A stretch of DNA of 64,000 bases from Sulfurovum sp. Lineage in GTDB: Bacteria > Campylobacterota > Campylobacteria > Campylobacterales > Sulfurovaceae. Below are positions 57,580 to 61,653 of this stretch, in pieces. The stretch's first letter is position 1. The number at the start of each line of letters is the position of its first letter. A program made the translations under genes and the position numbers. Below the pieces are notes generated by a model. It did not search any database and had not been told where the DNA came from. It saw nothing but the letters and a program-made list of their open reading frames with translations. The stretch is from the NCBI GenBank assembly GCA_030949725.1, contig JAUZSE010000003.1, positions 19,822-83,821 on the forward strand, written 5' to 3'.

Positions 57580-58044
57580 ATGGCTATCAATATCGTTGCC
57601 CAAAACAAAAAAGCCCGACATGATTATGAAATACTTGAAAAGTTTGAAGCAGGTATTGTACTTGCTGGTTCTGAAGTCAAAGCACTACGTGCCAAACGTG
57701 CCAACCTAGCAGATGCGTTTTGTCGCTTCATACAAGGTGAGTTACACATCATGAACGCCCACATAGCACATCTAGAAACCACCAACATAAACTATACTCC
57801 AGACACAAGAACGCCTAGAAAACTTCTCCTACATAAGAAACAGCTCGAAAAACTTCATGTAAAAGTACACAAAGACGGCTTAACCATCGTTCCACTCATG
57901 ATCTACTTCAATGAACGTAACTTTGCAAAAGTAAGTATCGCCCTTGCAAAAGGAAAACAACTCCATGACAAACGTGCAGACATGAAAGCAAAAACACTTG
58001 ACCGCGAAGCACGCACGGCTATGAAAAATAGGAGTTATGAGTAA
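57580..58044 (+). CDS. smpB: SsrA-binding protein SmpB
   Basis: NKKARHDYEILEKFEAGIVLAGSEVKALRAKRANLADAF. Confidence 0.96.
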   Translation: MAINIVAQNKKARHDYEILEKFEAGIVLAGSEVKALRAKRANLADAFCRFIQGELHIMNAHIAHLETTNINYTPDTRTPRKLLLHKKQLEKLHVKVHKDGLTIVPLMIYFNERNFAKVSIALAKGKQLHDKRADMKAKTLDREARTAMKNRSYE

Positions 58045-58090
58045 AAGGGAGAGAGAAAGTGTCAAAAGATTTCATTAGGCTACTCCTCTA

Positions 58091-58205
58091 AGACCGTGAA
58101 AGAACTTATATATTTTTTGTAGGGTGCATTTTAATGCACCTTAATTATAATAAATATTGTTTTTAAGGTGCAATAAATTGACACCCTACAGTTCTTTCAC
58201 AGTCT
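58091..58205. repeat. Long imperfect inverted repeat (MITE/REP-like)
   Basis: AGACCGTGAAAGAACT...TGTAGGGTGCATTTTAATGCACCTT and AAGGTGCAATAAATTGACACCCTACAGTTCTTTCACAGTCT are imperfect reverse complements around an AT-rich loop. Confidence 0.8.
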
Positions 58206-58282
58206 CCTCTGCATAAGAACGAAAAAAATAACCTTATGCTATAATCACCCCACTAAACATCATAAAACAAAAAAGGTCAAAT

Positions 58283-59179
58283 ATGTGCCAAGTATCAAAA
58301 TACATCAACCCATTTACAGACTTTGGATTCAAAAAGATATTTGGAGATCCTAATAGTACCGAATTACTCAAAAGTCTTCTTAACGATATTTTGAAGTTTG
58401 AGGGAAAAGATAAGATCAAAAAGATTACCTTTAAAAATGGTGAACTACTTCCTGAAGCTCCTGAAGAAAGAAAAGCCATTATAGACATGATGTGTGAAGA
58501 TGAAAAAGGCAATCAATTTATAGTAGAACTACAAAAAGTATCTCAAGAACATTTTCAAAGTAGAGCCTTATATTATACTTCCTTTCCCATACAACAACAA
58601 GGCATTAAAGGAGGATGGAACTTTGAGCTTACCCCTGTGTATTTTGTAGGACTGCTTAATTTTGAGATAGATAGATTTAAAGATAGTCCAGAATACTTAC
58701 ACCACGGTATGATAATAGATAAATATACCAAAAAAACAATGTACGATAAACTCAATATGGTTTACCTAGAGATACCAAAACTCAAAAAGACCAAAGAAGA
58801 GCTATCTAGTCACTTAGAGTGGTGGATGTATGTTTTTCAAAATCTTAATCTCATGACAGACATACCCAAAGAACTTCAAAACGATGTCATCAAAAATGCC
58901 TTTAGTAAAGCAGAGTTTGCTTCTATGCCTAAAAACCAACAAGAGAATTATCATAAGAATTTAAAGACGTATAGGGATTTGGTCAATAGTTTTGATTTTG
59001 CTGTGAAGAGTGGGCATGAGGATGGGATGGTACAAGGTATGAAGGCAGGTGCAAATGAAGAGAGGACAAAAATAGCCAAAAATCTTTTGGATGCCAATAT
59101 GGACTTAGATTTTATTTCCAAAACTACAGGTTTGAGTTTGAAAGAGATAGCGAGTCTACAACGTAAACCTATGCTATAA
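58283..59179 (+). CDS. Rpn/PD-(D/E)XK nuclease family (transposase-like), copy 1
   Basis: YINPFTDFGFKKIFGDPNSTELLKSLLNDIL, IIDMMCEDEKGNQFIVELQKVSQEHFQSRALYYTS. Confidence 0.9.
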   Translation: MCQVSKYINPFTDFGFKKIFGDPNSTELLKSLLNDILKFEGKDKIKKITFKNGELLPEAPEERKAIIDMMCEDEKGNQFIVELQKVSQEHFQSRALYYTSFPIQQQGIKGGWNFELTPVYFVGLLNFEIDRFKDSPEYLHHGMIIDKYTKKTMYDKLNMVYLEIPKLKKTKEELSSHLEWWMYVFQNLNLMTDIPKELQNDVIKNAFSKAEFASMPKNQQENYHKNLKTYRDLVNSFDFAVKSGHEDGMVQGMKAGANEERTKIAKNLLDANMDLDFISKTTGLSLKEIASLQRKPML

Positions 59180-59217
59180 TCACCCCACTAAACATCATAA
59201 AACAAAAAAGGTCAAAT

Positions 59218-60132
59218 ATGTGCCAAGTATCAAAATACATCAACCCATTTACAGACTTTGGATTCAAAAAGATATTTGGAGATCCTAATAGTACCGAGTT
59301 ACTCAAAAGTCTTCTTAACGATATTTTGAAGTTTGAGGGAAAAGATAAGATCAAAAAGATTACCTTTAAAAATGGTGAACTACTTCCTGAAGCTCCTGAA
59401 GAAAGAAAAGCCATTATAGACATGATGTGTGAAGATGAAAAAGGCAATCAATTTATAGTAGAACTACAAAAAGTATCTCAAGAACATTTTCAAAGTAGAG
59501 CCTTATATTATACTTCTTTCCCTATCCAACAACAAGGCATTAAAGGAGGATGGAACTTTGAGCTTACCCCTGTGTATTTTGTAGGACTGCTTAATTTTGA
59601 GATAGATAGATTTAAAGATAGTCCAGAATACTTACACCACGGTATGATAATAGATAAATATACCAAAAAAACAATGTACGATAAACTCAATATGGTTTAC
59701 CTAGAGATACCAAAACTCAAAAAGACCAAAGAAGAGCTATCTAGTCACTTAGAGTGGTGGATGTATGTTTTTCAAAATCTTAATCTCATGACAGACATAC
59801 CCAAAGAACTTCAAAACGATGTCATCAAAAATGCCTTTAGTAAAGCAGAGTTTGCCTCTATGCCTAAAAATCAACAAGAGAATTATCATAAGAATTTAAA
59901 GACGTATAGGGATTTGGTCAATAGTTTTGATTTTGCTGTGAAGAGTGGGCATGAGGATGGGATGAAAGTTGGGATGAAAGTTGGGATGCGAGATGGAAGG
60001 ATACAGGGTAAACGAGAGGGAATCAAAGAAGGGACAATAAAAATTGCCAAAAACCTTTTAGATGTTCTGGATAATGAGACTATATCATTAAAAACAGGAT
60101 TATCCGTAGATGAGATTGAATCGTTTAGGTGA
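59218..60132 (+). CDS. Rpn/PD-(D/E)XK nuclease family (transposase-like), copy 2
   Basis: Near-identical to copy 1 through codon 249 (offset 935 bp), then a different C-terminus MKVGMKVGMRDGRIQGKREGIKEG. Confidence 0.9.
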   Translation: MCQVSKYINPFTDFGFKKIFGDPNSTELLKSLLNDILKFEGKDKIKKITFKNGELLPEAPEERKAIIDMMCEDEKGNQFIVELQKVSQEHFQSRALYYTSFPIQQQGIKGGWNFELTPVYFVGLLNFEIDRFKDSPEYLHHGMIIDKYTKKTMYDKLNMVYLEIPKLKKTKEELSSHLEWWMYVFQNLNLMTDIPKELQNDVIKNAFSKAEFASMPKNQQENYHKNLKTYRDLVNSFDFAVKSGHEDGMKVGMKVGMRDGRIQGKREGIKEGTIKIAKNLLDVLDNETISLKTGLSVDEIESFR

Positions 60133-60152: not shown

Positions 60153-61070
60153 TTATATTCGCTTCTTCCTCTTTGCTTTTAATTTCTCTCGTGAAGAAAT
60201 ATAGGTTTTTATTTTTATGCCTTTCTTTTCACGTTTTTTCAAAAGTTTTATATGGCTATTTGGATTAAATGCTCTTTCTTCTCGAAGTCGTTTCCATTTA
60301 GACACTTTTTTGTACCCTGTAAATTTATAGATTGCTCTTTGTATTCCTTTACGTAACCATTGTAAAAAACTTTTGACAGGAATATGAAATACTTTTTCCA
60401 GAAAAAACTCTATCCATCTAAAAAATGTACTAAAGAAGGTAGAAATTTTAGCTAAAGTTTTTGCCAATAAAGGTATCTTTTCCATCCATGACAACAACCA
60501 TGTAAAAATAACAACTTCAACAATAGGGGCAATCCAACTTCCCCATAGATAATCTGTGAAAAAATAAACAATCGCAGTACCTGCTTTTAAAAATATAGCC
60601 AATAAAAAAGACCAAAATTTCGCAATAAATACCTTCATAGCAAGCATGCCACCCATAAATTTTCCCACAAAACCTAAAGAGCCTAAAAATATAAATACAG
60701 CTATAATTTGTTTAACAATAGGAAAATTCTTAAAATTCTTTTTGATATAGACAACCAAATGTTTAATATCATCAGAAATATGATCCAAGAGATGCAACTT
60801 AAAATTACGTGTGATAACTTTTTCTATAAGGTAACGTTTCCCTAAACCCGCAGCAGAAAGAAAAGCAATTTTTTTGATAAAAAGTATCAAAACAAATTTA
60901 CCTTTTACAAGAAAAAAAGCTGTCAAAAGCACTAAAATATTTTCTTTTAAAAAATAAAAGAGATTATGTGCTGGTTCTAGTATAAAATTACGACTCTCTT
61001 CTATAGTAAAAAGAACAATAAGAGCCAAAACAATCAAAGGTAAGACCCAAATAAGGATTCTATTTTTCAT
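60153..61070 (-). CDS. Hypothetical multi-pass membrane protein
   Basis: Several hydrophobic helices, highly basic C-terminus. Confidence 0.65.
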   Translation of the reverse strand: MKNRILIWVLPLIVLALIVLFTIEESRNFILEPAHNLFYFLKENILVLLTAFFLVKGKFVLILFIKKIAFLSAAGLGKRYLIEKVITRNFKLHLLDHISDDIKHLVVYIKKNFKNFPIVKQIIAVFIFLGSLGFVGKFMGGMLAMKVFIAKFWSFLLAIFLKAGTAIVYFFTDYLWGSWIAPIVEVVIFTWLLSWMEKIPLLAKTLAKISTFFSTFFRWIEFFLEKVFHIPVKSFLQWLRKGIQRAIYKFTGYKKVSKWKRLREERAFNPNSHIKLLKKREKKGIKIKTYISSREKLKAKRKKRI

Positions 61071-61077
61071 CGTGTAT

Positions 61078-61653
61078 CTATGATTTTAAGGAACGTTTTA
61101 GTACGGTATAAAGATGTTTAATTTTGTCCATAAAAGGACTTTCTCCCGAAAAGTACTTTGTTTTAAACGCTAGCACATAGGCTTTTACACTTGTCTTTAT
61201 CTTATTTACACCTTCCATCGTCTTGACATACATGTCACGAGACTTCAACCAATCAATGCCTTTCATAATCCAATCATAGATCCATTTAAACCACCCAAAC
61301 TGCATAAGCTTATCTTCTGTAACTCTAAACAACCAAAAGGTAAATGCTGCTATAGGTATCTTGGAGATATATAAAGTCAAACCTAACACAGCTTGCCCCG
61401 AAACAAATAACATCCCTGCATATATACCAAAGGCTTCCACAATCACGAGTAAGACAACAAAGATCACCAAAATTATAAAAGGATTCACATCTTGCAACTT
61501 AGCCTCTAACTTTTGAAGCATCTTCAAAGAATGAATAAACGTATAAACAGGCTTTGCGATACCTTCCCAAATCAATTCTTCAAAGATGATATAGAGTATC
61601 ACAAGGATAAGTTGAAAGAGCAAGATGATTTTGTTTTTAATCGTAGTAAGCAT
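61078..61653 (-). CDS. Hypothetical membrane protein
   Basis: Hydrophobic helices LFQLILVILYIIFEELIW, PFIILVIFVVLLVIVEAFGIYAGMLFV. Confidence 0.65.
   Translation of the reverse strand: MLTTIKNKIILLFQLILVILYIIFEELIWEGIAKPVYTFIHSLKMLQKLEAKLQDVNPFIILVIFVVLLVIVEAFGIYAGMLFVSGQAVLGLTLYISKIPIAAFTFWLFRVTEDKLMQFGWFKWIYDWIMKGIDWLKSRDMYVKTMEGVNKIKTSVKAYVLAFKTKYFSGESPFMDKIKHLYTVLKRSLKS

Follow-up and report, generated by a model that had tools for sequence, protein, structure and literature searches.

Rpn proteins form a recently described toxin-antitoxin and anti-phage family, and the mechanism of their diversification and the source of their antitoxins outside Escherichia coli are at issue. The closest described systems are the E. 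coli RpnL/RpnS proteins (RpnA-E and RpnP2; Zhong et al. 2023, PMC10327210; PDB 7TH0). According to that paper, the tail of E. coli Rpn is a dimerisation domain that is also produced on its own, as RpnS, by internal initiation; these C-terminal proteins act as intragenic antitoxins, and the number of repeats in the tail sets partner specificity. The same paper already describes Rpn arrays formed by tandem duplication, hypervariable tails and changes in repeat number. Rpn nucleases, their arrays, the hypervariability of their tails and intragenic antitoxins are known; the useful additions made here are the recurrent exchange of tails and the absence of internal starts from part of the family.

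The window analyzed here is a 64,000-nucleotide stretch of a 1.77 Mb genome whose nearest named relatives are Sulfurovum/Sulfurovaceae. It carries two adjacent rpn genes. The locus is probably a tandem Rpn pair that arose from a duplicated unit of promoter and nuclease core, the two copies bearing different tail classes that would place them under separate control.

The duplicated unit and its setting

The two genes are co-directional on the + strand, with copy 1 at 58283-59179 (298 aa, tail class A) and copy 2 at 59218-60132 (304 aa, tail class B), and both are full length. They match PF12784 (PDDEXK_2; E=1.8e-58 and 2e-58; 198 bits against a cut-off of 27.4) and TIGR01784, the 'Rpn family recombination-promoting nuclease/putative transposase' (118.8 and 109 bits against a curated cut-off of 52.1), well above the cut-offs and with no difference in membership. 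The TIGR01784 model itself covers core and tail. The catalytic residues D68, E82 and Q84 (D...E-x-Q) of the PD-(D/E)XK nuclease are present in both copies and invariant in all 98 of 98 relatives, and E82 and Q84 also align in E. coli RpnA, RpnB, RpnC and RpnE. Judged by these matches, both genes are assigned to the PDDEXK_2 branch of the Rpn-family nucleases, in agreement with the first-pass annotation, which had called them tandem Rpn nuclease genes. A Foldseek search with the AlphaFold2 model returned only weak matches, none below E=0.04 and several to restriction-type nucleases, and was not used; plain phmmer searches of tail or core against single PDB chains gave nothing useful.

The copies are direct repeats offset by 935 bp, and the duplicated block includes the promoter. 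Identity between them begins at about 58229 and 59164, at a putative extended -10 type promoter box, TATGCTATAAT, which lies at 58235-58245 in copy 1 and at 59170-59180 in copy 2 (both +). Copy 1 ends (TAA, 59177-59179) within the putative -10 box of copy 2; the duplicated block therefore extends from the start of a minimal promoter through the nuclease core to the end of codon 249, at 58229-59029 for the first copy and 59164-59964 for the second (both +). The first 249 codons (747 coding bases) contain seven nucleotide differences, all synonymous; at the protein level the copies do not differ before codon 250, where they diverge. Four of the seven differences fall in codons 100-103, a cluster that may reflect one conversion event. 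Finding all seven synonymous has a probability of about 7e-6 for independent random changes or 4e-4 if only transitions are considered, and would count for less if the cluster is one conversion event. The duplication itself is beyond chance: an exact 0.8-kb repeat with an abrupt break needs no statistics. The 935-bp offset with promoter, and the handful of base differences up to codon 249, had been reported correctly at first pass.

Assemblers fail at 800-bp near-perfect repeats, and the source assembly is fragmentary (25 contigs, 70% complete), which could mean that single rpn genes of two strains were falsely joined as a tandem. Such a join is improbable given its specific junction, where the tail of copy 1 runs straight into the -10 box of copy 2, and the seven differences that separate the two cores; moreover, the same architecture occurs in the single-contig genome G127 and in the finished Flavobacterium covae chromosome CP067379.

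The pair is flanked by smpB (57580-58044) on one side and by two convergent membrane-protein genes on the other. The membrane-protein gene pair (60153-61653, - strand) adjoins smpB across most of the genus sample. The rpn genes appear to be a lineage-specific insertion or replacement, because many genus members have smpB and both membrane-protein genes adjacent, with no rpn between them. In the nearest of these (L126, L127 and L128) a small gene fills the gap between smpB and the first membrane-protein gene where the window has the rpn pair (L126:1005-1480); we take it to resemble HugZ-type heme/FMN proteins. This gene was not found in the window's own genome, the assembly of which is incomplete. 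The neighbours are smpB, conserved membrane-protein genes and ribosomal-region genes, and those scanned include no other recognised defence gene; co-location with defence genes is a tendency of the Rpn family and no strict requirement. PADLOC returned one weak match, of copy 2 to a 'putative invertase' (E=0.003, 16 bits), and nothing for copy 1 or either flanking membrane protein. No plain intrinsic terminators were found at the locus. Upstream of copy 1, at 58085-58218, lies a palindromic, MITE-like element (GTGAAAGAACT...TGTAGGGTGCA / TGCACC...CACCCTACAGTTCTTTCAC), present in one copy only in the searched genome sequence.

The family is often annotated as transposase, is patchily distributed (21 of 150 relatives) and occurs in fragments, such as a core-deleted copy in the same genome, all of which would suit 'putative transposase' copies that are selfish or non-functional and lack regulated toxicity. 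We give this reading little weight, as the catalytic D-E-Q is intact and every one of the seven core differences is synonymous (with the reservation about conversion made above). In addition, a test for an autonomous transposon found no terminal inverted repeats or target-site duplication around the coding unit, the palindrome lying upstream only.

The two tails and the break between them

The first tail difference is at 59030 (59965 in copy 2), directly after an in-frame ATG at 59027-59029 (59962-59964). Copy 1 continues into a class A tail module (59030-59176, +), a repeat helix followed by KIAKNLLDANMDLDFISKTTGLS..., with its nearest tails in L007, L039, L043 and the own-genome paralogue L003. 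Copy 2 continues into a class B module (59965-60129, +), a repeat helix followed by KIAKNLLDVLDNETISLKTGLS..., with its nearest tails in L047, L040, L041, L046, L018 and L164, on cores of as little as 25-34% identity. Both tails consist of a glycine-spaced tetrapeptide helix and then a shared end module, KIAKNLLD...TGLSxxEI, that is 60% identical over 30 aligned residues between the copies; the parts that differ are the tetrapeptide-repeat helix and the three-helix module. The tails had been described as becoming unrelated at the ATG. The abrupt break is real, but the tails are homologous, being about 60% identical at the end and both inside TIGR01784. The accompanying description, a duplicated toxin core with two different C-terminal modules, matches the locus.

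A tail profile matched PDB 7TH0 (E. coli RpnA_S) with E=0.0013 over its residues 9-44, the three-helix region, and by this match the tails are homologous to the three-helix dimerisation domain of RpnA_S. The AlphaFold2 model (25-sequence alignment, mean pLDDT 77) has an uninterrupted helix at residues 217-280 followed by two short helices, a pattern like that described for RpnA_S. Because the predicted helix runs through codon 249, the junction would lie in mid-helix and not in a domain linker. In the model, the break falls at the start of the repeats, within a predicted continuous helix, and does not appear to be set by the start codon. An exact tandem dodecamer (two units of TGGGATGAAAGT, 59958-59981, +), which encodes an Rpn-type tetrapeptide repeat, spans the junction in copy 2. 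Three in-frame ATGs occur there at 12-nt intervals (59962, 59974 and 59986), the first two in the exact dodecamer repeat, and the junction ATG is one of three in step because the dodecamer is duplicated across the junction. Copy 1 has two in-frame ATGs, at codons 249 and 253.

The candidate internal start

The first-pass annotation noted an in-frame ATG with GAGG upstream and peptides of about 50-56 aa, and at the sequence level this is accurate. The candidate internal starts are at 59018-59029 in copy 1 (GAGG 59018-59021, ATG 59027) and at 59953-59964 in copy 2 (GAGG 59953-59956, ATG 59962), both on the + strand; each has a GAGG-ATG spacing of 5 nt and a duplex energy of -6.1 kcal/mol, compared with -3.4 for the main start, and the predicted peptides are 50 aa and 56 aa, respectively. 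M249 aligns with M244, the start of E. coli RpnS. These features, the positional homology with proven E. coli RpnS starts and the internal RpnS expression reported for E. coli and a C. difficile gene in PMC10327210 favour an explanation in which an intragenic antitoxin is translated from ATG 59027 and 59962 and the start codon sets the module boundary.

The comparison with relatives makes this explanation a rather doubtful one. In the closest homologue, L007/L035 (core 92% identical in amino acids), the junction codon is CTA and GAAGATGGA replaces GAGGATGGG; start codon and Shine-Dalgarno site are both gone, the latter by a synonymous change. Between core and tail, 5 of the 16 homologues whose core identity reaches 65% lack an ATG, and 27 of 98 lack any in-frame ATG, GTG or TTG. 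Bacteroidota depend little on Shine-Dalgarno sites and make up most of the 98 homologues, so the count of absent codons is the firmer number. No conserved internal start with a Shine-Dalgarno site was found elsewhere in the core across the family; internal starts at M153, M159 and M215 are frequent among relatives, yet show no Shine-Dalgarno enrichment and were rejected. Other swapped pairs lack an ATG at the break, which lies at the equivalent structural position or deeper in the tail and varies in its exact place around the repeats.

All of E. coli rpnA, rpnB, rpnC and rpnE have an ATG with strong AAGGAG/GGAGG-like sites. Synonymous shuffles placed the Shine-Dalgarno strength of the window genes within expectation (p = 0.11 for copy 1 and 0.43 for copy 2), a test that is weak for single genes because the E. 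coli positives themselves reach only 0.03-0.31. Glycine- and glutamate-rich repeats easily create Shine-Dalgarno-like sites. A scan for internal promoters found 9 sites against 8.5 expected, none of them on the + strand between 58580 and 59027; the scan used a sigma-70-like model, which may not fit organism-specific promoters. Genes consisting of the tail alone (RpnS-only) were sought in relatives, but the candidates were mostly contig-end fragments, frame-broken or startless and were not accepted as antitoxin genes. Contig C3 of the window's own genome contains a 100-aa Rpn gene (L004:1486-1788, - strand) from which the nuclease core has been deleted in frame, about 33 N-terminal residues being fused directly to the repeat helix and tail. 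It is either a natural tail-only protein or a relic.

From these alignments, an internal start does not appear to be a conserved property of the PDDEXK_2 Rpn branch, while initiation at 59027 and 59962 themselves is conceivable, though less likely than not. The claim that the internal ATG marks the module boundary fails on the swapped pairs that break without it and on the CTA of L007/L035. The claim of intragenic antitoxins stands in part: such antitoxins are published for Rpn in PMC10327210, the tails are homologous to RpnA_S and the ATG is at the RpnS position, but the start is not conserved and its Shine-Dalgarno site does not exceed what shuffling gives. With a junction ATG, GTG or TTG absent from about a quarter of the sampled relatives, the generality of the gene-within-gene antitoxin is called into question.

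Tail exchange and comparison with known systems

The pattern of tail exchange was found in related genes of several phyla. A tandem pair in another Sulfurovum assembly (L042) is 95% identical in core DNA and 58% in the tail. The cores of the paralogues L039, L040 and L041 are 92% identical in DNA to one another; the tails of L040 and L041 are 93% identical, that of L039 only 53-57% identical to both. Adjacent copies in G127 are about 98-100% identical save for a short inner tail segment, and those of F. covae CP067379 (L083) have core bins of 93-100% identity and different tail classes. The two overlapping rpn genes at L156:519-2280, in G127, are the cleanest example of patch replacement that we have seen. 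Tail identity is below 0.65 in 83 of 193 pairs with a core amino acid identity of at least 0.90, a count made over non-independent pairs. The reverse also holds: cores with just 25-31% identity to those of the window bear class B tails (LLD[VI]LD.E.I..KTGL), and in DNA tail 1 matches that of the own-genome gene L003 despite a core identity of only 24%. Tails of one class shared across divergent cores are 57-73% identical; no tails at least 80% identical were found on cores at most 60% identical. Because near-identical cores carry different tails and similar tails sit on cores of 25-31% identity, the tail appears from these comparisons to behave as an exchangeable module.

Trees of the tails agree in direction with exchange but are short (39 columns). 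Forcing the tails of copies 1 and 2 into one clade gave a borderline p = 0.063 in the AU test on these 39 columns, and forcing those of L039, L040 and L041 a similarly borderline 0.057; three further AU tests for tail incongruence gave p of 0.17-0.42. As the AU tests are borderline at best, the case for swapping is based mainly on the identity contrasts. The tails might instead have diverged after the duplication by point mutation and repeat slippage, with no exchange: Rpn tails are hypervariable, and changes in repeat number are documented in PMC10327210 and seen in F. columnare/covae copies. This is very hard to reconcile with the adjacent 747 coding bases, which carry seven synonymous differences next to tails about 60% identical in the bundle, and with tail 2, which is closer to class B tails on cores of 25-81% identity than to tail 1. 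In a Chlorobiaceae array of three adjacent Rpn genes (L077:1069-4534), the cores of copies 2 and 3 have drifted apart (about 40-60% in DNA), yet their 3' ends are 90-100% identical (GMSAEQAAEMAGVPVALLRLP), the reverse of the window pattern.

What is directly seen is that the cores are identical and the tails different but homologous, that the copies part where the repeat helix begins, and that such exchange recurs in other arrays. We propose that duplication of a unit of promoter and nuclease core gave the tandem pair, and that each unit was joined to a different allele class of a C-terminal module made up of a tetrapeptide-repeat helix and a small three-helix HTH-like bundle. The exchange probably proceeded by homologous recombination or gene conversion, with the conserved core and the repetitive dodecamers serving as ends. 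As in E. coli RpnA and RpnC, the tails would be the part through which the nucleases dimerise and are recognised by inhibitory tail peptides. By extrapolation from the experiments on E. coli RpnA, RpnB and RpnC in PMC10327210, two nucleases of the same activity would each be shielded from the partner or antitoxin of the other, and would therefore be two separately controlled defence nucleases, not one redundant gene; the toxicity and phage defence of the pair are likewise presumed by analogy. The internal ATG would owe its presence mainly to the G-[MIL]-x-x repeat code; translation from it, if it occurs, would give an RpnS-like peptide of 50 or 56 aa that is particular to the copy encoding it. 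More tentatively, the C-terminal module may be a recombining cassette throughout the PDDEXK_2 branch, with arrays that keep one core and collect tails and with the dodecamer-repeat helix determining the break points; across a large part of the branch no antitoxin would come from a junction ATG, GTG or TTG, and inhibition would come from another source or from a full-length partner. Pairs of this kind, alike in the nuclease and unlike in the tail, offer natural experiments on whether the tail alone sets partner and antitoxin specificity.

As described in PMC10327210, the E. coli RpnL/RpnS systems share with the window genes a PD-(D/E)XK core, a tetrapeptide-repeat helix and a three-helix bundle, together with tandem arrays, a hypervariable tail and a candidate internal start at the homologous place, at an overall identity of about 14-20% to RpnA, RpnB, RpnC and RpnE. 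The type I restriction systems EcoR124I/II, whose specificity changes with repeat number, offer a parallel in the use of short helical tetrapeptide repeats to tune specificity, an analogy only, taken from the same paper. Unlike the E. coli genes described there, the window genes belong to the PDDEXK_2 branch, in which the internal start is not conserved. The window pair also differs from them in a way that the main text of that paper does not describe: it exchanges the whole bundle between near-identical cores, and not the repeat number alone.
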